Made by a program: the position numbers and the translations under genes. A model generated the notes under the pieces. It was not told where the DNA came from. It did not search any database and was given only the letters and a program-made list of their open reading frames with translations. Of a stretch of 64,000 nucleotides of DNA, positions 6,348 to 18,533 are shown piece after piece (within the stretch, counting starts at the first letter, position 1; each line of letters starts with the position of its first letter). Source of the DNA: an uncultured Phycisphaerales bacterium (lineage in GTDB: Bacteria > Planctomycetota > Phycisphaerae > WQYP01); the NCBI GenBank assembly GCA_903845195.1, contig CAIMWO010000018.1:35174-99173 (forward strand), read 5' to 3'.

Positions 6348-7277
6348 TCATTGCATGCGCGAACCCTTAAGTCGTTCGCGAATCGCCAGAATCGGAAATG
6401 CAGCCAAGTATCGAAATCGAAGTAGAGCTAGATTCCATCCAAACGTACGCCGAAATAAACGCCAAGCCCACTTCGATTCCTTATGATTCAGACATCCGAT
6501 CGACACCGGGCGGATATGCATGGTGATAAGCGACCAGCGTGCCTTTCGGCGCGCCTTTCCTCCGGGATATTTGCCCTGTCCCTCTGAATCTATCAGGTAC
6601 ATTCCACCTTCCACATTTTTCATTGAGTACGCAGAGATGTTTCCTGCGTGCTCCCGCCGGGCACAGCATACGGGTCGATCAATCCGCACAAACCCAGGAG
6701 CATCAGAGACGCGCAGCCACGCATCGTTCTCCTCGTGCGTGAACCGATGAATAAAAAAGCCCCCGGCCTTCTGCAGGATCTCCCGTTTTACGGCAAGTGA
6801 ACTGGGGGTCAACCATGCCGGCTCCCGCCATGAGGCCAGGTAGTCCGCGTAATAGCGATCGCGTAACGGGGCGGGCTGAATCTCCTGAACCGTGTCGGCA
6901 TTCGTAAAACTCTGTATCGCTCCGAGCACCAGGGACGGGTGTTTGTGCTTCGCGATTGCTTCCGCCATACGCTCCAGAGCCCACGGCAACCACAGATCGT
7001 CGCTGTCCAGAAAGATGACGTATTCTCCGGCCGCCGCGGCCATGGCGTTATTGCGGGCCGCGCCGAGGCCCTGATTATTCTGGCGCAACAACCGGACGCG
7101 ATCCTTGTATCTGGCGAGGACTTCGGGGGTACGATCGGTAGAACCGTCATCGATGACGATAATCTCCTGATCCTTGAAGGTCTGGTTCAACACCGACTCG
7201 ATCGTTTCCACAACCAAATCGGGCCGGTTATAGACTGGGATGATCGTCGAGAATAACGGCATAGCCACCAAAGTCAA
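6348..7277 (-). CDS. Glycosyltransferase family 2
   Basis: FSTIIPVYNRPDLVVETIESVLNQTFKDQEIIVIDDGSTDRTPEVL and FLDSDDLW (DxD). Confidence 0.93.
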   Translation of the reverse strand: MTLVAMPLFSTIIPVYNRPDLVVETIESVLNQTFKDQEIIVIDDGSTDRTPEVLARYKDRVRLLRQNNQGLGAARNNAMAAAAGEYVIFLDSDDLWLPWALERMAEAIAKHKHPSLVLGAIQSFTNADTVQEIQPAPLRDRYYADYLASWREPAWLTPSSLAVKREILQKAGGFFIHRFTHEENDAWLRVSDAPGFVRIDRPVCCARREHAGNISAYSMKNVEGGMYLIDSEGQGKYPGGKARRKARWSLITMHIRPVSIGCLNHKESKWAWRLFRRTFGWNLALLRFRYLAAFPILAIRERLKGSRMQ

Positions 7278-7392
7278 TTCTGCAATTGAACGGGTAATAG
7301 AACGGGTGACAAATTGTAACGGCTCACGAGGCGGTTATCATATCATTTTACTATCGGTTCGTAATTCTTACGGCAATAGCTGATTTGCGAGG

Positions 7393-8178
7393 ATGTCCAT
7401 GGCCAGCACAGAACCGCTTCCATCCATCACCATCGTTACTCCGAGCTTTCAACAGGCCCGTTTTCTCGAACGCACCATTCAAAGCATTATCGGGCAAAAC
7501 TATCCCCGACTGGAATATCTGATCTTCGATGGCGGATCGACGGATGGGTCGGTGGAGATCATCAAGAAATACGCGGATCGTATCAACTTTTGGGTAAGCG
7601 AGAAGGATGATGGCCAATCCGATGCGATCAACAAGGGACTGAGCCGGGCAACAGGCGAGATCGTGGGATGGATCAATAGCGATGATACGATGGCACCCGG
7701 ATCGCTGGAGGCGATTGGCACGTATTATCGCGCTCATCAGGATGCCGAATTTCTCTACGGACATCTCAACCTAATAGATGCTGACGATCATATCATCCGG
7801 CGACTGTTTGCCGTGCAGACTAATGCGCACGAACTGATTTACTTCAATCGCAACCTGTTCTCCCAACCTGGAACGACCTGGCGGCGGCGGCTGCAGGAAC
7901 GAATCGGCCTGTTGGACCGGTCGCTGCATTACACAATGGATTGTGATCTTTATATCCGAGCGGCGAAGGCGACACCGTTGCATTTCATACCGCGACGATT
8001 TGCGAATCTGCGGATTCATGGCGATACGAAAACCAAATTGATGAAACCGCGGTTCGATGCCGAACACAAGTTGCTGGACGAGCGTTATGGCGCGCGCTCG
8101 ACCAACCGCATCGTAAAACAATTCTTCAATCTGCGCAGGCGCATGCGCATTCTGCGGTGCCTAGCCAACTGGAAATAA
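7393..8178 (+). CDS. Glycosyltransferase family 2
   Basis: SITIVTPSFQQARFLERTIQSIIGQNYPRLEYLIFDGGSTDGSVEII...WVSEKDDGQSDAINKGLSRATGEIVGWINSDD. Confidence 0.93.
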   Translation: MSMASTEPLPSITIVTPSFQQARFLERTIQSIIGQNYPRLEYLIFDGGSTDGSVEIIKKYADRINFWVSEKDDGQSDAINKGLSRATGEIVGWINSDDTMAPGSLEAIGTYYRAHQDAEFLYGHLNLIDADDHIIRRLFAVQTNAHELIYFNRNLFSQPGTTWRRRLQERIGLLDRSLHYTMDCDLYIRAAKATPLHFIPRRFANLRIHGDTKTKLMKPRFDAEHKLLDERYGARSTNRIVKQFFNLRRRMRILRCLANWK

Positions 8179-8357
8179 GGTTGGAAGAATTGGCTCCCCA
8201 GCTTTTCGCGAGCGAAGGTCTGGGCGGCTTCGAGGGAGAGGATTATTTGGTGATACTCGGATGTAAAAGCTTGATCTGAGAATGAATTGGGGCGGAGAGT
8301 TCGAGCATGGTGTCGATGAATTTGCGATTTGATGAGCGGCAGGCTTTGAAAGCAACT

Positions 8358-8957
8358 CTAGAATTCCAGTTGGAATCGCGCCACCAGGCGGGCTTCGCGG
8401 GCGAAGCTGTCATCGGGGCCGGAGCCACCATCGAAGTAGAGCAAGCTGGTGCCGATGCTGGCATTCTTGCCCACTACCCACATGATGCCGGCGCCAATGC
8501 CCATGCGTTTTATGTCTTCGATCCGCGAATCGTCTTCCTCCGCCACTGCAATGAACGGCAACAGGAGCGAATCGATCGGGGCCGGGACATTGAAGATCGT
8601 CGTGGCTGACCAGGGCGTTTGCGTCTCCCAGACGTTCATCCGGTCAAGAAACGCATCCATTCCTGTGGCGGGAATCATCATTTGATAGACGAAGCGCACC
8701 GCGGGATCGGTCAGCGTTGCCAGAGGCATGATGAACTGCTTGACCTTTTCGGAATAGGTCTCATCGACATCGCGGCCGACCAGGAATTCGGTCTCCGGGA
8801 GGATGACCCCCATCGGCTGCAACGTGAGGGGTCCGACGGGAAACGAAATGTCCTGTGCCTGAGCAGTCCCCGCGGCGGTGCACCAGAGGCACAACGCCGA
8901 TAATACCCCGGCCCACCAGGTTCTTCGCAATGAGATTATACTAAGCTTTGCGCGCAT
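8358..8957 (-). CDS. Exported protein, putative outer-membrane beta-barrel-like
   Basis: Signal peptide (MRAKLSIISLRRTWWAGVLSALCLWCTAAGTAQAQ) and a C-terminal aromatic residue (ARLVARFQLEF). Start chosen at internal ATG 8957. Confidence 0.5.
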   Translation of the reverse strand: MRAKLSIISLRRTWWAGVLSALCLWCTAAGTAQAQDISFPVGPLTLQPMGVILPETEFLVGRDVDETYSEKVKQFIMPLATLTDPAVRFVYQMMIPATGMDAFLDRMNVWETQTPWSATTIFNVPAPIDSLLLPFIAVAEEDDSRIEDIKRMGIGAGIMWVVGKNASIGTSLLYFDGGSGPDDSFAREARLVARFQLEF

Positions 8958-9222
8958 CCACCTTCCAGACAACGGATAGCTGAGTCGGTTAGGCAACTTT
9001 GCCAAAATTCTCACCGATTATCCAGCGTTTTCTTCCAGAAAGAAAAAATTGTTACTGGCCTGTGGCAATTTGCGCAGAAGTCGCGCGAACTTGCTCGCAA
9101 CACCACGCATAGGTGAACGTTTGTCCCTTCGCGGCGTTTGCCGCTTCGTCACCTTGTCACTCTCGCCCAACTAGGTACGATGAGCACGAATCAGCCGTTC
9201 TGCACCGTTTTCAGGAGTTTGC

Positions 9223-10302
9223 ATGAGCGCCAACCCCCCAACGCATCAGTCGGCCCTCCTCGCTGCGGCGCAGGCTCAGAGCGCATCGTCCACTCCCGCC
9301 ACTGAAGCTGCCGCCATCGAAAAACTCAAAATCGCCCGCGAAGCATTACTTCATGAAATCCGCAAGGTGATCGTCGGCCAAACGGATGTCTTGGATCTTC
9401 TGCTCACGGCCATGTTTTCGCGCGGGCATTGCCTGCTCGTCGGCGTACCGGGTTTGGCCAAGACGCTCATGATTTCCACGCTGGCCCGCGTTCTTTCGCT
9501 GCGGTTCAACCGCATTCAGTTCACGCCTGACCTGATGCCGTCGGACATCACGGGCACCGACATCATTCAGGAAGACCCACAGACCGGTCACCGGGCATTC
9601 AATTTCGTCAAAGGCCCCATTTTCTCCAACCTATTACTGGCGGACGAAATCAACCGCACGCCGCCGAAGACGCAAGCGGCGCTACTCCAGGCCATGCAGG
9701 AATATCAGGTGACGGCATCGGGCAAGACGTACCCCCTTGAGCCCCCTTTCTTCGTACTGGCGACGCAAAACCCAGTGGAGCAGGAAGGCACCTATCCGCT
9801 TCCGGAAGCCCAGCTCGACCGTTTTATGTTCATGGTGAAGGTCGGGTATCCGCAGAAAGAGGATGAGCGCACGATCGTTAAGTCCACCACTTCTGAGATC
9901 TCACAGGATCTGAGCCCGATTCTCACGGCCAATGATATTCTCACCGTGCAGAAGATGGTGCGAAAAGTGCCGGTATCCGACCATATTGTGGACTATGCTG
10001 TCACCCTCACGCGCGCCACCCGACCGCACGAGAAGGATACTCCGGAATTCATCAACAACTGGCTGACGTGGGGGGCCGGTCCACGTGCGGCACAATACCT
10101 GGTGCTGGGGGCCAAGGCCCGGGCTATCACCCGCGGCCGGCTTAATGTGTCTGTCGAAGACATCAAACAGATGGCGAAACCCGTGCTCCGGCACCGCATC
10201 ATCACCAACTTTAACGCAGATGCGGAAGGTGTGGATCCTGATACCATCATCGAAAAACTCCTTTCCGCCATCAAAGAACCGAGTGCTGAAGCGTACCGAT
10301 AA
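9223..10302 (+). CDS. MoxR-family AAA+ ATPase
   Basis: [95 protein letters not shown]. Confidence 0.97.
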
Positions 10303-10448
10303 TCGACGGCTTTCCGGCCCTTCCCGCCTCACCTGCCTATAGTGGGCTCAAGTTTATTGCGCTACGTATCCGATCCACTACGATGGATTCTCATCGCGCT
10401 GCCATTTGGTATTTGACTGGCCTCAATCCGGAGCTATAAAGAATTCAT

Positions 10449-10910
10449 GTGGAAGTGAGGCGTGGTATGTCAAACTATTCTGCGGCCCTCAAGCATGAAG
10501 CCAGCCCTCTGCCGGGCAAGAAGTTCTTCACGCTCAGTGAAGCGCGCCGGGCACTCCCACTCGTCAAGCGAATTGCTGCGGACATTCACGACGCACAAAG
10601 CCATCGGCTCCGCATTCACGCCGAGCTGTCGGCGGGGATGGCGGATCTGGCCCTTGGGGGGCACGAGGCCCTGCAACGCGAATTTGATGATGAGACCGAT
10701 CACCTTGAATCGCTCGTTGCGGAGTTGGGGCTAATCGGGGTGGAACTGAAGGACCCCTCGCGGGTGCTTCTGGATTTCCCGGCGATGCATGAAGGCCGGG
10801 AGATTCTGCTGTGCTGGAAATCGGATGAAGAAAACATCGACTTCTGGCACGAGCTCGACGGCGGATATGCCGCGCGAAAACCGGTCAGCGAACTTGCCGA
10901 CGTGCACTGA
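10449..10910 (+). CDS. DUF2203 family protein
   Basis: FFTLSEARRALPLVKRIAADI...GVELKDPSRVLLDFPAMHEGREILLCWKSDEENIDFWHELDGG, typical of DUF2203. Confidence 0.88.
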   Translation: MEVRRGMSNYSAALKHEASPLPGKKFFTLSEARRALPLVKRIAADIHDAQSHRLRIHAELSAGMADLALGGHEALQREFDDETDHLESLVAELGLIGVELKDPSRVLLDFPAMHEGREILLCWKSDEENIDFWHELDGGYAARKPVSELADVH

Positions 10911-10971
10911 TCAGTGGGCCTCTCCCTCTTTCGACTGAATTGTTAGCATTCTGGTGGTGAGTCACGCGGCG

Positions 10972-12777
10972 CTAGCTGCGTTCGGCGGTTGCGCTTTCCG
11001 GCGCGGCCTCCAGCCGGGCGTAATTCGGAGTCCACATCGCAGCGCCCACGGCGCTGGGAATATCCCCATCATCCAGCGGGCGCCCCACGCCTTCTTCACG
11101 TGCCTGGCGCACCACAGCACAAGCGACCTTATGTGTGATGGCCCGCAGTTCGCGTAACCGCGGAAAGAGCGTTCCGGCGGCGATATCGGCATCGGAAACA
11201 TGTTGCGCCAACGTCTCGGCGGCGACGCGGAACATCGCATCGCTGACGCGGCTGGCCTCGGATACCAAGACGCCCAGACCCACACCGGGGAAGATCAAGA
11301 CGTTGTTGCCTTGGCCGATGCGAATCATGCGTCCCTGCCACTCGACGGGATCAAACGGACTTCCGGTGGCGACCATGGCGCGGCCGGCGGTCCAGGCGAT
11401 CAAATCGGCGGGCTTGGCTTCGCACTTGCTGGTCGGATTCGACAGGGGCAAGATGACCGGGCGTTCAACATGTGAGGCCATCGCGCGGATGACCGCTTCG
11501 GTGAATACGCCGGGTTGACCGGATGTTCCCACGAGCACGGTGGGTTTGAGTGCGCGGACCACGGCGAGCAGATCAAGGGGCTGATTCGGGTCCATTCCCG
11601 CGGCCTTGACCATTTCAACGGGCCAGGCAAATTCAGCTTTGGTTTCATCGCTCAGCTTGCGTCCCTGGTGCAGGAAGCCGCCGCTGTCGAGCATGCCGAT
11701 TTTCCCGATCAGTTCGTTTCCTTCCGCACCGGAGCGGCGGAAGGTATCGCGAATCAAGCGGCTGATGCCGATGCCGGCGGCGCCGGCGCCGAGCATGACC
11801 ATGCGCTGTTGACTGAGGGGTTTGCCGGTGGCGCGAACGCCGGCGAGCAATGCCGCCGCACCGATCGCGGCCGTTCCCTGAATGTCATCATTGAACGAGG
11901 GCAGGCGTTTGCGGTAGCGCTCCAGCAGACGCAGGGCGTTCTGCTGTTTGAAATCTTCCCACTGGAGCAGGGCCAGCGGGAATATGCGCTTAACCGCCTG
12001 CACGAATTCTTCGATGAAATCATCGTAGGGTTTGCCCCGCAGGCGTGCATGCCGCCAGCCGAGGTAAAGCTCATCGTCGAGCAGTTCCTGATTATCCGTG
12101 CCGACATCGAGGCTGATGGGGAGCGTGTATTTGGGGTGGATGCCGGCGCCGGTGCTGTAGAGGGCGAGTTTGCCGATGGGGATGCCCATGCCGCCGGCGC
12201 CGAGATCGCCGAGGCCCAGAATACGTTCGTTATCCGTCGCGACAATCAAGCGGATGTCGCGCGTTCCGACGTTGGCGAGGACTTTTTCGATACGGCCGCG
12301 ATGTTCGGGGCAAATCCAGACGCCGCGAGCCCGGCGGTAGATATGGCTGTAGCGCTGACAGGCCAATCCGACCGTCGGCGTATAAATGATCGGCAGACAT
12401 TCCTCGAGATGGTCGAGCAGCACGCGATAGAAGAGCGTTTCGTTGCGATCCTGCAGGGCGACCAGGCCGATGTAGCGTTCGAGGGGATCGGTTTTCGCCG
12501 CAATGTGTTGATAGGCGCGCTGGGCCTGCATATCGAGAGCGGCCACACCCGGCGGCAATAATCCTTCCAACCCCAGCGCCCGCCGCTCACTATCGGGGAA
12601 GGCCGTTCCCTTGTTCAGGCGTGGATTGTTGAGCACGGCCTGTCCGCGCAGGGATACGAACTCGGCGACATCGTCTTTCATGTAACCACTGACGCCTTGA
12701 TTGCCCGCATCAGCCGGCCGGCTTTCGACGGAAGCAACATCGCCGGCATTATCCACTTCAGAATTGGAACGACTCAT
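10972..12777 (-). CDS. maeA: NAD-dependent malic enzyme
   Basis: LPIIYTPTVGLACQRYSHIYRRARGVW, ILGLGDLGAGGMGIPIGKLALY, FNDDIQGTAAIGAAALLAG, PLSNPTSKCEAKPADLIAWT. Confidence 0.95.
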   Translation of the reverse strand: MSRSNSEVDNAGDVASVESRPADAGNQGVSGYMKDDVAEFVSLRGQAVLNNPRLNKGTAFPDSERRALGLEGLLPPGVAALDMQAQRAYQHIAAKTDPLERYIGLVALQDRNETLFYRVLLDHLEECLPIIYTPTVGLACQRYSHIYRRARGVWICPEHRGRIEKVLANVGTRDIRLIVATDNERILGLGDLGAGGMGIPIGKLALYSTGAGIHPKYTLPISLDVGTDNQELLDDELYLGWRHARLRGKPYDDFIEEFVQAVKRIFPLALLQWEDFKQQNALRLLERYRKRLPSFNDDIQGTAAIGAAALLAGVRATGKPLSQQRMVMLGAGAAGIGISRLIRDTFRRSGAEGNELIGKIGMLDSGGFLHQGRKLSDETKAEFAWPVEMVKAAGMDPNQPLDLLAVVRALKPTVLVGTSGQPGVFTEAVIRAMASHVERPVILPLSNPTSKCEAKPADLIAWTAGRAMVATGSPFDPVEWQGRMIRIGQGNNVLIFPGVGLGVLVSEASRVSDAMFRVAAETLAQHVSDADIAAGTLFPRLRELRAITHKVACAVVRQAREEGVGRPLDDGDIPSAVGAAMWTPNYARLEAAPESATAERS

Positions 12778-12912: not shown

Positions 12913-13314
12913 TCATTTCGGGGCAGAGGTGCTATTGCCCTCTGCCGCTTTTGGGGCACCGGTTTCTTCATTGCCGGATTTGTGTATCTGCAATTCTGAA
13001 GATTTGGTCGTCACGGGACTCGAATGGGCCTCGCCCAGCGAGAACGACTTCTTCGGGCAGACATCCACGCAGTAACCGCAACTGATGCAGCGCAGGCGGT
13101 CGATTTCCATGGTTTTCTTGTCGCGGCTGACGATCAGTGCATTGGCGGGGCATTTTTTGGCGCAGGCCGTGCAGTAGACGCAGTTGCCGTCAGTGAATAC
13201 CAGTTTGCCGCGAGAACCGGCGAGCGGGACGCGCGGTTCAAACGGGTAGCGGCTGGTCACCGGCTTGCGGAATATCCATTTCATGACCAGCGAGGTCATC
13301 TGGAAGAACGCCAT
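12913..13314 (-). CDS. echF: Ech-like hydrogenase ferredoxin subunit (EchF/HycF/NuoI-like), 2x[4Fe-4S]
   Basis: CVYCTACAKKCPANAL and CISCGYCVDVCPKKSF; start at ATG 13314, immediately after the large-subunit stop. Confidence 0.85.
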   Translation of the reverse strand: MAFFQMTSLVMKWIFRKPVTSRYPFEPRVPLAGSRGKLVFTDGNCVYCTACAKKCPANALIVSRDKKTMEIDRLRCISCGYCVDVCPKKSFSLGEAHSSPVTTKSSELQIHKSGNEETGAPKAAEGNSTSAPK

Positions 13315-13315
13315 G

Positions 13316-14392
13316 TCACCTCTCCGTACAACTGATGCAGGGATCAATCGTCAGCACCAGCACCGGCACATCGGCCAGGTCACACCCTTGCAGGACTTTG
13401 AGCATTGCCGGCAGATTGGCGAAGGTCGGCGTGCGGACGCGGAAACGCTGCAGATTCTTCGAACCCGTCGCCTTCACGCAATAGGCCACCTCGCCGCGCG
13501 GCTGCTCGGTTCGCATGATCGTTTCGCCGTTGGGATTGCCGGTCACCTTGACGGCAATTTCGCCGTCAGGAATTCTTTCCAGGGCCTGCCGGATGATATC
13601 CACCGACTGGAATAATTCTTCGCTGCGGACGGCACACCGGGCATACGAGTCGCCCTCGGTGCGCGTGATCGGTTCAACGGGAATATCTTTGTAGGCGGCG
13701 TAACCGAGCTTTCGCATGTCTTGAGCGACGCCGCTGGCCCGGAGCATCGGACCGACGCAGCCGAGTTCGTAGGCTTCCTGTTTGGTCAGCACGCCGACGC
13801 CGCAGAGACGCGATTTCACCGAGCGGTCGTTCATGAAGACCGTGGTGATCTCACGCATTTCCTTTTCGATGGTCTTCATTTCCGACTGGATGTGCGTGAT
13901 CATGGCGGGATCAATGTCGCGGCGGACTCCGCCGATCTTGCACGATCCGAAGATCACGCGTCCGCCGGTGGTGGCTTCAATGATGTTCAGCACGCGTTCG
14001 CGTACCCGCCACGAGTGCATGAAGAGGCTTTCAAAACCCATCGCATCGGCGAGCAGTCCCAGCCAGAGCAAGTGGCTGTGGATACGTGACAGCTCTCCCC
14101 AGACGGTCCGCAGATAGAGTGCCCGCGGGGGGACGGTGACGTTCATGATGGTTTCGATGGCCTGGCAGTACGATTGCCCGTGAATGAAACTGCAGATGCC
14201 GCAGATGCGTTCGGCGACGTAGACAAATTCGACGTAATCTTTTTTCTCGGCCAGCTTTTCCAAGCCGCGATGAATGAAACCGATCGAGGGGCGTGCCTCG
14301 ACGACCTTTTCGTCTTCGACGACGAGATCGAGATGCACGGGTTCCGGCAGGACGGGATGCTGCGGACCGAAGGGAATAATCGTACGAGCCAT
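13316..14392 (-). CDS. echE: Group 4 [NiFe]-hydrogenase large subunit (EchE-like)
   Basis: L1 motif RICGICSFIHGQSYCQAIE and L2 motif DPCISCTER; both Cys pairs for the NiFe site are present. Confidence 0.93.
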   Translation of the reverse strand: MARTIIPFGPQHPVLPEPVHLDLVVEDEKVVEARPSIGFIHRGLEKLAEKKDYVEFVYVAERICGICSFIHGQSYCQAIETIMNVTVPPRALYLRTVWGELSRIHSHLLWLGLLADAMGFESLFMHSWRVRERVLNIIEATTGGRVIFGSCKIGGVRRDIDPAMITHIQSEMKTIEKEMREITTVFMNDRSVKSRLCGVGVLTKQEAYELGCVGPMLRASGVAQDMRKLGYAAYKDIPVEPITRTEGDSYARCAVRSEELFQSVDIIRQALERIPDGEIAVKVTGNPNGETIMRTEQPRGEVAYCVKATGSKNLQRFRVRTPTFANLPAMLKVLQGCDLADVPVLVLTIDPCISCTER

Positions 14393-14398
14393 AAATCC

Positions 14399-14824
14399 TC
14401 ACTTCACCGGAGCGGCGCCTGCCGCGGGCTTGGGGGTTGGGGCCGGGGCAATTGCCGCACAGGTCACGCCGGGGGCCTTCGTGCTGCCGAAGGGGAATTT
14501 CACTGCGGTCTTGTAGAGGTTGCCCTTGAAGTCGAGCGTCATGCCGTCGACCTGCACGCGAAACAGATCGTGCATTTCGTTTTCGTAAAGGACGGCGCAA
14601 CCGTAGATTGTGCTGACGCTGGGGAGCCGCGGCTCTTCCAGGGGCAGATGCAGCCGCAAACTTGCCAGGCGAAGATCCAGGTCAAAGCTGTAAGTGATCT
14701 CCAGCTTGTCGGGCAGTGTCGTCGCGTGAATCTGCACCAGCCGGTAACCGTCCTCGTGCATTTTCTGGACGCGCTGCAACAGCGTCTCCACCGCGATGGG
14801 TTCCATGGTTTGTTCCGGAGTCAT
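14399..14824 (-). CDS. echD: Ech-like hydrogenase 30-kDa/NuoC-like subunit (EchD-like)
   Basis: NuoC-like STIYGCAVLYENEMHDLFRVQVDGMTLDFKGNLYKTAVKFPFGS; ATG at 14824 overlaps the preceding stop. Confidence 0.85.
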   Translation of the reverse strand: MTPEQTMEPIAVETLLQRVQKMHEDGYRLVQIHATTLPDKLEITYSFDLDLRLASLRLHLPLEEPRLPSVSTIYGCAVLYENEMHDLFRVQVDGMTLDFKGNLYKTAVKFPFGSTKAPGVTCAAIAPAPTPKPAAGAAPVK

Positions 14825-15724
14825 TTTCGCTCCTTCTGGAAATAGACCCGCGCGATTGCCGGCCGCCACGAATCCGTCTTGTAGAGTTCATATCCCTGCC
14901 GCTGCAGCCACGCGGCGCTTTCGACGCACTTGTCGCCGATGGAGGCCTCGAAGCGATTCATGTCCGGGAGGGCCTTTTCCAATTCTTCGAGGAGCCGGCG
15001 CCCGACACCGCAGCGATGGAAATACGGGTGCACGATGACATCGCTGATGAAACCGGTGCGATCCTGGGCGTATCCGCGGGCGACACCGACAAGCCGCCCA
15101 TTGACGGTGGCCTTGATGAATACGCGTTGCGTCAGTTCGACTTCGAGTGCCGGAAGTGTCTGGACCAATCCCGGCACGTGTTCTTCGCCGTAGATTGTGC
15201 CTTCCTGCTGATGGGCGGTTTTCTGCAGGGAGAGGATGCGTGCAGCATCCGCAGATTCCGCCCGCGAGTAAAGCACCTGATCGACATTCTTGCCAAGGGC
15301 CTTCATCGCCTTGCGACGATCCATCAGGGCGGCGAGGGCCTGCACGACGCCATCGATGATGGCCTCGGGGCGAGCGGCACAGCCGGGGACGAAGACGTCG
15401 ACGGGGATCACCGTATCGACGCCGCCGGAGATGTTGTAGCACTCGCGGAAGATTCCGCCGGTGCAGGCGCAGGCGCCGATGGCCACGACCACCTTGGGTT
15501 CGGGCATCTGGTCGTAGATATTGCGGATCACGGCGTGGCTCTGTTCGTTGGCGGCGCCGGTCACCAGGAAGATATCGGCGTGTTTGGGGTCACCGGTGTT
15601 GAGGACGCCGAGGCGTTCGACATCAAAGCCCGGCGTCAGGCACGCCAGCGTTTCGATGTCGCAGCCGTTGCAGCTGGAGGCATCGTAATGAATCACCCAC
15701 GGCGATTGTTTCAAGCCAAACATG
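14821..15724 (-). CDS. echC: Ech-like hydrogenase small subunit (EchC/NuoB-like) fused to C-terminal GNAT acetyltransferase domain
   Basis: N-terminal half: SSCNGCDIETLACL, AIGACACTGGIF, VFVPGCAARPEAIIDG (NuoB-like 4Fe-4S). C-terminal half: DVIVHPYFHRCGVGRRLLEELEKA (GNAT motif A). One uninterrupted ORF; true start taken as MFGLKQSP at about 15724. Confidence 0.9.
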
Positions 15725-15731
15725 AGCGGCC

Positions 15732-16592
15732 TTAACGCAAGAGGGACAAAATCAGAATATTGCCGAAGCCCAGCACTGCGGCCACTGCCCACGCGCTGCG
15801 GATCGCGGCCTGCCACTTCAACCGGGCAAAGACGTTGTCGACGAAAATCACGAGCACGAAGACGAGCAGGGAGACCGCCACGCCGAGAATGGGCATCGAC
15901 GCGAAGAAGAGATAGACCCATCCCAGGAGGAAAACGAGTTCGTACCAGTGGGCGATTTCGATCATGGCGAGCGTGCGGCCGGAGAATTCGGTTGTCAGGC
16001 CGCGGACGAGTTCCTGGTGGGCGTGATGGGAGGAGGAGAGGTCAAACGGGGATTTGCGGAACTTGATCTCGAGGGTGTAGAGGAATCCGAGGAAGATCCC
16101 CGGCAGCAGGAAGACCAGCGGGACGCCGTGATAGCCGGCGATGTCACCGACCTGGAAGCTCTTGGTCACCATGTACATGCCGATGGCGGTGAGTAGGACC
16201 ATGGGTTCATAGGCCATCATCTGGATCAGCTCGCGTTCGGCCCCGATAAAGCTGAAGGGGGAGCTGGCCTTGTAGGCCCCGAGGACGAGGAAGATGGCGG
16301 CCAGAGTGAGGGCGAAGATCACCAGGAGCAGATCGGAGCCGGCGAAGAAGAGTCCGCCGGTGAAGATGACGAACACCAGGAAGAGGGCGACGTAATAATT
16401 CTGCGAGCGGCGGACGACGATGTTTTCTTTTTTGCACAGTTTGAAGACATCATAGAAGGGCTGAAAGATCGGCGGTCCCTGGCGCGACTGCATGCGGGCG
16501 GAAATCCGGCGATCCCAGCCCACGAGCAGCCCGCCGACCAGCGGGGCGGCCAGCAGATACACCACGAGCGAAATCCAGGAATTTATTGACAT
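15732..16592 (-). CDS. echB: Ech-like hydrogenase membrane subunit (EchB/HycD/NuoH-like)
   Basis: Multi-TM protein with GWDRRISARMQSRQGPPIFQPFYDVFKLCKKE and SHHAHQELVRGLTTEFSGRTLAMIEIAHWYE (NuoH/HycD-type). Start at ATG 16592. Confidence 0.92.
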   Translation of the reverse strand: MSINSWISLVVYLLAAPLVGGLLVGWDRRISARMQSRQGPPIFQPFYDVFKLCKKENIVVRRSQNYYVALFLVFVIFTGGLFFAGSDLLLVIFALTLAAIFLVLGAYKASSPFSFIGAERELIQMMAYEPMVLLTAIGMYMVTKSFQVGDIAGYHGVPLVFLLPGIFLGFLYTLEIKFRKSPFDLSSSHHAHQELVRGLTTEFSGRTLAMIEIAHWYELVFLLGWVYLFFASMPILGVAVSLLVFVLVIFVDNVFARLKWQAAIRSAWAVAAVLGFGNILILSLLR

Positions 16593-18533
16593 GCGATTAC
16601 CACCATCACGGCCAGGAGGCACGTGCAGCAAATGACCCCGCAGCGCGACAGCCATATTTCACTGAGCAACCCGCGCATGTAATAGTTGTTCATCGTCGTG
16701 TTTTCGACCTTGCCGCCCGAACCGAGGAATTGAACCTTGTCGCCGACGTTGGCGCCGCTCAGGTAGGCGGCCACGACTCTGGGGGCCGCGGCCGTAGCGA
16801 ATGAAGCTCAGCGGGAAGAGCATGACCATCGCCATCATGATCATCATGATGATGATGTTGCCCTGGGTCAGCGAAGCCGCATGCTCACCGAAAACGCCAG
16901 TCACATACGGCACGATCATGTGCGATGAAATCATCGGGAAAAGCAGGCATGCCAGGAAGGTTGCCATGGAAAGCACGCCCACGGCCAGGCCTTCGCCCAG
17001 CGTGAATTCGTTGCGGACCCGCTCGGGGGTTCCTACGACTTCAACAAGTTTGCCCATCCACTTCACCCAGAAGAAGAGCGTGGCCGAACTGCCGAAGACG
17101 ATGAACACGGAGAGTACCGGGGCCGCGTCGACGACCGCCATCAGCACGGCATACTTGCTGATCAACATGCCGAAGGGGGCCAGGAACATGCCCGCCATGC
17201 CGATGAGCATCATCACGGCCACGGCCGGCATGCGCACGATGAGGCCGGACATGGCATCGATGTTCCGGCTATGAATCTTGTGTTCGACCAGACCGACGCA
17301 GAGGAACAGGAGGCATTTGGCAACCGCATGGAAGATAATCAGCAGCACGCCTGCCCAGACGGCCGCATAGGTTCCGATTCCGCCGCAGAGGACGATCAAA
17401 CCGAGATTTGCCACGGTGGACCAGGCCAAGACGCGTTTGGCATCGGCGGCCGTGATTGCAGCCAGCGATCCCACCAGGAAGGTCACGGCCCCAACCAGCG
17501 CCACCAGCATTCCGACCTTCGTTTCCGTAATCACCGGCGCCATCCGCAGAACCAGGTAGACCCCGGCTTTCACCATCGTGCTCGAATGCAGTAGTGCCGA
17601 CACGGGGGTGGGCGCGACCATCGCTCCGAGCAGCCAACTGGAAAACGGCAACTGGGCCGACTTGGTAATGCCTGCAAAGCAGAGCAGGGCTGCGGGTAAC
17701 AGTACGAGTGCCTTGCTTGATCCACCGGACTTGGCGCTGTCGATCAGTCCCTGAAGGTCGAGCGGGCAGGCATTGCGGCTCAGGTAGACAATTGCCGCGG
17801 CAAAGGCCACTCCGCCCAGGAGGTTCATCATCAGGGCGCGCTGGGCGTTGCGGCGGGACTCTTCGGTGCGGGTGTAGCCGATGAGGAGATAGGAGCAGAG
17901 GGTGGTGATTTCCCAGAAGAAGAAGAGCCAGGTGAGGTTGTTGGAGAAGACGAGGCCAAACATTGCGCCGACGAAGACGAAGAGCAAGGCGAAGAATGTT
18001 GGGCGGCGATCGGTAACATCGGTATGTGCGACCTCGTGGTATTCCTTCATGTACCCAAGCGCGTACAGGCAAATGCCGCCGCCCACTATCCCGTTGATCA
18101 GGGCCATGATGACGGAAAAGTGATCTGTAGCGGGAAGAAGATTTTGGCTGACTTCGGGATGACTTCCCGAGCCATACTCAAACCACGCCATCAAACCGGC
18201 CTGAACCGCCATCAGGACGGCGATCAAGGGTCGGCGGGAGTGAACGCCGACGTAGAGCACGAAGATCGCCATTGCCGCTTCGGTCAGGTTCATCGCCAGA
18301 TTGATCGAATGATCAGAAACCGCGGTTATCGTGAAGGAGATTGCGTCGGGAGCTACCACCAGCAGGACGCTGGCGGCGCCGATCGCCAGTACCAGGATGG
18401 TCACGATCACCCGGCGAACGTGGTCATTGCGGATCAGCAGCATGGCCAGACCCGCAACCAGCGGAACGAGAATAAGCAAAGGTATGAGCGTCATCATCAT
18501 CAAATGTTCCAACGCGTGAAGCCGGACAACCAC
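16583..18533 (-). CDS. echA: Ech-like hydrogenase proton-pump subunit (EchA/HyfB/NuoL-like); apparent frameshift near 16781-16785
   Basis: LFVFVGAMFGLVFSNNLTWLFFFWEITTLCSYLLIGYTR, KSAQLPFSSWLLGAMVAPTPVSALLHSSTMVKAGVYL, HAVAKCLLFLCVGLVEH. The C-terminal continuation VVAAYLSGANVGDK... lies in another frame. Confidence 0.88.

Follow-up and report, generated by a model that had tools for sequence, protein, structure and literature searches.

A GNAT domain fused to the small subunit of an Ech-type [NiFe] hydrogenase

In the window (the whole stretch of 64,000 nucleotides analyzed here), the third of six genes in a complete Ech operon encodes the small subunit of an Ech-type [NiFe] hydrogenase, EchC, with a built-in GNAT module. 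We regard this anatomy as virtually certain. The enzyme and the fold are both known and their combination appears to be new: we found no description of the EchC-GNAT architecture in open-access papers, and within that literature the impression of the first-pass annotation that it is undescribed is borne out. Through the fused domain, acetyl-CoA may directly control hydrogen production.

The fusion gene and its operon

The annotation had described a single uninterrupted minus-strand ORF with an N-terminal NuoB/EchC domain and a C-terminal GNAT domain carrying an acetyl-CoA motif, and had proposed a domain search and a structure prediction. Our analysis agrees on each of these points. The ORF runs from an ATG at 15723 to a TGA at 14821, so that the end first given (15724) should be lowered by one base. 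Pfam recovers Oxidored_q6 (PF01058) at residues 18–128 (E 6.8e-29) and Acetyltransf_1 at residues 198–258 (E 1.8e-9), each above its curated cut-off. By sequence, the closest solved chain to the EchC domain is MbhJ (6cfw_J; phmmer E 1e-43, residues 5–134). AlphaFold (AF2) with 85 aligned sequences gives two confident domains (mean pLDDT 92.4, pTM 0.79), NuoB-like and then the complete beta/alpha order of a GNAT, with pLDDT mostly above 90 in the latter; a shallower alignment (19 sequences) modelled EchC poorly (pLDDT 72), which the deeper one cured. Foldseek matches the EchC part to 6cfw_J (TM 0.83 by target length, rmsd 2.1), and the GNAT part to PaiA with CoA (1tiq, TM 0.76) and a RimI-like protein with AcCoA (4jwp, TM 0.70; both by target length). 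The domain thus has both the fold and the CoA-binding loop (Q/R-xx-G-x-G/A) of the GNAT superfamily, the loop reading HRCGVG, where H occupies the Q/R position. The EchC domain ends around residue 135 and the first GNAT strand of the model starts from about residue 151–152. A junction is therefore present, as had been proposed, at about 15268–15318, slightly upstream of the 15230–15290 first suggested. The linker between the domains is poorly conserved (27% mean pairwise identity over residues 136–152 in 26 aligned fused proteins).

The operon has the order A-B-C-D-E-F (Table 1). The echD ATG overlaps the echC-GNAT stop (ATGA), which embeds the GNAT part in a compact operon, and the last stretch of the GNAT-coding part contains an AGGAG motif resembling a ribosome-binding site. 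EchE carries both CxxC Ni-ligand pairs, the first as RICGIC close to its N-terminus and the second as DPCISC at its C-terminus. Among solved chains, MbhL matches it best (6cfw_L; E 1.5e-80 over 6–358). These Ni ligands rule out a complex I. With six subunits, the Ni-ligand pairs and maturation genes in the genome, the operon has the features of an Ech-type (group 4) [NiFe] hydrogenase, and its predicted product is a proton-reducing, energy-converting membrane enzyme of this type. The fused protein is the only EchC in the window genome, where the three other matches are 41–44% identical over about 110–130 residues.

Table 1. Positions of the operon genes, of the domains of the fusion protein and of other loci mentioned in the text
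Feature	Position	Strand	Basis
echA, NuoL/MrpA-type antiporter-like membrane subunit	16659..18533	(-)	Pfam PF00361 E 7.7e-55
echB, NuoH-like membrane subunit	15732..16655	(-)	Pfam PF00146 E 5.6e-44
echC-GNAT fusion gene	14821..15723	(-)	300 aa + stop, single ORF
EchC/NuoB-like [4Fe-4S] domain	15319..15723	(-)	residues 1–135; Pfam PF01058, phmmer, Foldseek
linker	15271..15318	(-)	residues 136–151; alignment of 26 fused proteins
GNAT domain	14824..15270	(-)	residues 152–300; Pfam PF00583/PF13508, Foldseek
echD, NuoC-like (30-kDa-like) subunit	14399..14824	(-)	Pfam PF00329 E 8.2e-8
echE, [NiFe] large subunit	13316..14392	(-)	Pfam PF00346/PF00374; Ni-ligand motifs
echF, 2x[4Fe-4S] ferredoxin-like subunit	12913..13347	(-)	Pfam Fer4 families; NCBIfam PRK08348/NuoI-like
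malic enzyme gene	10972..12777	(-)	750 bits to PRK13529
HoxEFUH-type [NiFe] hydrogenase cluster, window genome	L197 (G000:C78) 6490-11418		
HypC-radical SAM protein loci	L018:9874-11169, L014:10342-11658, L008:10056-11366, L007:9989-11383, L011:5042-6358		TIGR03956, below cut-off
fused homologue with insertion in GNAT domain	L113:1501-2514		

Elsewhere in the window genome, one contig holds hypF, hypD and hypE-type genes beside a HoxEFUH-like NAD hydrogenase. A full pyruvate:ferredoxin oxidoreductase (PFOR) lies on the same contig, and this second [NiFe] hydrogenase cluster is beside both hypFDE and PFOR. A malic enzyme gene follows echF on the same strand and could be a pyruvate source for PFOR.

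In relatives, hypA and a HypC-containing protein are found downstream of the fused Ech operon. The latter (431–464 aa, after hypA in most) combines HypC and a HydE/PylB-like radical SAM enzyme in one chain, with TIGR03956 matches at E of about 1e-64 to 1e-71, below the cut-off. Of 19 genomes tested, all but one of them carriers of the fused EchC, 10 have it at full length; it is absent from the window genome. A radical-SAM step in assembly of the [NiFe] centre is a possible role, and we found no paper on this protein.

Distribution and history of the fusion

An architecture search, which the annotation had also proposed, returned 26 further complete fused homologues, so that 27 fused proteins were compared. 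They come from Verrucomicrobiota, Omnitrophota, Fibrobacterota and the window's own family and are, where measured, 48–62% identical over the full length. Scanning named genomes yielded 15 complete homologues and a further one that was cut, in records titled Verrucomicrobia, Akkermansia muciniphila (MAG), Opitutaceae, Omnitrophota, Fibrobacter and unnamed bacteria. In whole-genome samples, whose counts overlap partly with these named-genome loci, the fusion was present in 8/344 genomes for the phylum of the Verrucomicrobial carrier, 5/243 for that of the Omnitrophota carrier, 2/121 for that of the Fibrobacter carrier and 2/28 for the window's family (G000 and G008). Genomes sampled from the window's phylum do not turn up again in the phylum samples of these three other carriers, which makes it likely that the fusion occurs in a fourth phylum. 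Both domains were detected in all 16 fused proteins scanned with Pfam. Unfused EchC proteins mostly end at about 140–160 residues, some having longer low-complexity tails, and no relative of the fused GNAT was found near their genes in the surrounding DNA examined. One fused homologue (L113) has about 24 Ala/Pro-rich residues inserted inside the GNAT domain.

The source assembly is fragmented (97 contigs), and a sequencing or binning error could in principle have merged two genes. However, the same two-domain order in 26 other complete proteins from independent assemblies means that the fusion is not due to chance and rules out an assembly, frameshift or binning artefact; the junction has no conserved internal start either, and we give such an error next to no credence. 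An internal start yielding a separate GNAT was likewise rejected: only 17 of 26 fused proteins have a Met at the junction, and the internal start codons of echC-GNAT in the window have no clear ribosome site. The annotation had named three ways in which its reading could fail (a base error joining two ORFs, a C-terminal half other than a GNAT, two separate proteins), and none of them occurred.

On the GNAT-domain tree, all fused GNATs group together, apart from 28 free-standing relatives, in a single clade with support 96/96. The EchC-domain tree, which is weakly resolved with its 140 columns, does not recover the fused proteins as one clade (6 changes, AU p 0.039), so a strict single-clade history is not obtained there; on this tree an unfused Verrucomicrobial protein (L021) groups beside the window protein. 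Since the fused GNATs are one clade, the simplest history is that EchC gained a free-standing GNAT at its C-terminus, probably in a single event, with later loss of the GNAT and transfer between phyla, and this fits both trees.

The GNAT part is kept by purifying selection, less strictly than EchC, as dN/dS between close pairs is 0.03–0.12 for the former and 0.015–0.04 for the latter (Nei-Gojobori; some pairs approach saturation of synonymous changes). The branch of the window GNAT is long (1.1 on the GNAT tree, compared to 0.22 for the window EchC domain on the EchC tree), which indicates that the GNAT drifted further in this lineage. Several of its conserved residues are gone, and the domain could be decaying in the window species.

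Possible acyl-CoA sensing or catalysis by the fused GNAT

The CoA loop of the window protein (H236-R-C-G239-V-G241) belongs to a motif, Q/R/H-xx-G-x-G/A, that is kept in 26 of the 27 fused proteins; G239 is found in all 27 and G/A241 in 26. Also kept in 27/27 are K204, R216, Y178, Q188, V231, P233 and Y278, and E259, a possible catalytic base, is kept in 25. The presumed catalytic Tyr, at position 273 in the LYxxxGY/F helix, is present in 28/28 free-standing relatives but in only 15/27 fused proteins. We take this residue to be the equivalent of the RimI Tyr; a Tyr occupies the same place in the solved GNAT 2atr. It was lost in the window protein, which has Leu273, and in 11 of the 26 others, through at least 4 changes on the tree. 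Position 260 is Leu in all 28 free-standing relatives and altered in 26 of the fused proteins. Thus, as judged from these alignments, the predicted binding features are retained while the presumed catalytic feature is repeatedly lost. A general-acid Tyr is among the mechanisms known from GNATs (PMC8556138). The best NCBIfam equivalog of the window GNAT is PanM/PanZ, with 30.4 bits against a matur_PanM cut-off of 68 bits; the domain is therefore not a PanM member.

We tentatively propose that the fused GNAT would be an acyl-CoA-sensing allosteric regulatory module of Ech. The GNAT domain would bind acetyl-CoA (or CoA), occupancy by the ligand would alter a putative interface between the domain and the cytosolic module of Ech (EchD/E/F or the ferredoxin site), and the changed interface would tune electron flow from reduced ferredoxin to protons, in a direction that may be either up or down. 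PFOR has two products, acetyl-CoA and reduced ferredoxin, and acetyl-CoA would therefore be a sensible signal of ferredoxin needing discharge. In a possible, more speculative version, the hydrogenase would be gated by acetyl-CoA: a retired acetyltransferase would read the acetyl-CoA/CoA state and set the rate at which reduced ferredoxin is discharged as H2. The precedent for a sensing role is PanZ, an AcCoA-dependent GNAT regulator in which AcCoA occupancy governs the grip on an enzyme (PMC4410942). Consistent with sensing are the number of fused proteins, their single GNAT clade, purifying selection, the kept CoA loop and the eroded Tyr, together with the [NiFe] ligands, HypF/D/E and PFOR of the window genome. 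Against it, catalysis may persist at least in the 15 of 27 fused proteins that keep the Tyr (with E259 in 25 of 27), GNATs are able to work without the Tyr, the single-chain AF2 model shows no partner contacts, and the unfused L021 protein, nested near fused ones, shows that the core enzyme is independent of the GNAT domain.

The annotation had suggested that acetyl-CoA level is coupled to the hydrogenase through lysine acetylation. The link to acetyl-CoA is plausible, but the route is not favoured. A catalytically active domain, acetylating a lysine or the N-terminus of a neighbouring Ech subunit, of ferredoxin or of another partner at the membrane and so switching activity or assembly, would agree with the complete GNAT fold in the AF2 model, the intact CoA loop, the retention of E259 and Tyr noted above and purifying selection on the domain. 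We nevertheless think it unlikely, since the Tyr invariant among free-standing kin is lost in 12/27 fused proteins including that of the window, and since searches of 9 fused genomes, which may be incomplete, left 5 with neither a sirtuin nor an HDAC-type deacetylase. A conserved deacetylase partner was thus not seen in these genomes (the window genome has an HDAC-type deacetylase, and a sirtuin was not found in it), and in at least these 5 of 9 genomes, completeness permitting, an acetylation switch would be irreversible by known erasers. The pattern of residues and deacetylases favours acyl-CoA sensing over an acetylation switch.

Erosion of the Tyr and the change at position 260, alongside strict conservation of Y178, Q188 and Y278, would also suit a structural or assembly module that steadies EchC or docks EchD, EchF or a maturation factor, acyl-CoA being irrelevant, and the GNAT is dispensable for other Ech enzymes. 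But the CoA-binding glycines and loop, needless for pure structure, are among the best-kept parts of the domain, and we consider such a role quite improbable. Another member of this GNAT family is joined to a chorismate mutase type II domain (L192; PF01817 E 7.6e-16), in a genome (G1034) that has the EchC-GNAT fusion as well. The family may therefore fuse readily, and the domain might be a passenger: a small-molecule acetyltransferase of an ordinary kind that happened to become tethered to a membrane protein and leaves the hydrogenase unaffected. This is very unlikely given that the fusion is kept across several phyla, that specific residues were fixed after fusion and that the catalytic Tyr is often lost.

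If acyl-CoA sensing is true, a sensor within the enzyme would link acetyl-CoA and reduced ferredoxin at the place where H2 and the ion gradient form, and the GNAT would be a cis regulatory module within a complex-I-like machine. We know of no earlier description of an Ech hydrogenase with built-in control by a metabolite or by post-translational modification.

Comparison with known systems

The N-terminal domain, the cluster motif, the operon order and the Ni ligands of the large subunit are those of Ech/Mbh group 4 hydrogenases (EchC, MbhJ; 6cfw_J). The window protein differs by its added C-terminal GNAT, which MbhJ and the unfused EchC proteins compared do not have. That small subunits are normally single-domain, as the annotation stated, holds in general, but complex I with NuoB fused to its siblings C and D is known, for example in classes of Thermodesulfobacteriota (PMC12361115). 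These NuoBCD fusions also place a NuoB-type subunit within a larger polypeptide; there it is joined to sibling subunits, whereas EchC is joined to an unrelated, putatively regulatory fold.

Like PanZ/PanM, the AcCoA-dependent GNAT regulator of PanD to which it has a weak sequence match, the fused GNAT is possibly a CoA-occupancy sensor on a metabolic enzyme. However, PanZ is free-standing and has another target (PMC4410942), while the fused GNAT falls below the NCBIfam cut-off and its CoA binding is a prediction. The free-standing GNATs L168, L169 and L103 are 48–51% identical to a fused GNAT and have the fold family and sequence signature in common with it; unlike many fused GNATs, all 28 free-standing proteins compared keep both Tyr 273 and Leu 260. 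Bacterial protein acetyltransferases of types I–III (Pat/PatZ, cAMP-GNAT, ACT-GNAT, NADP-GNAT) combine a GNAT with another domain and tie metabolism to acetylation (PMC8556138). The Ech fusion resembles them in having a GNAT fused to another domain. In the Pat/PatZ-type proteins the partner domain regulates the GNAT, whereas the GNAT of the Ech fusion is attached to one subunit of a multi-subunit membrane enzyme and has often lost the presumed catalytic Tyr.
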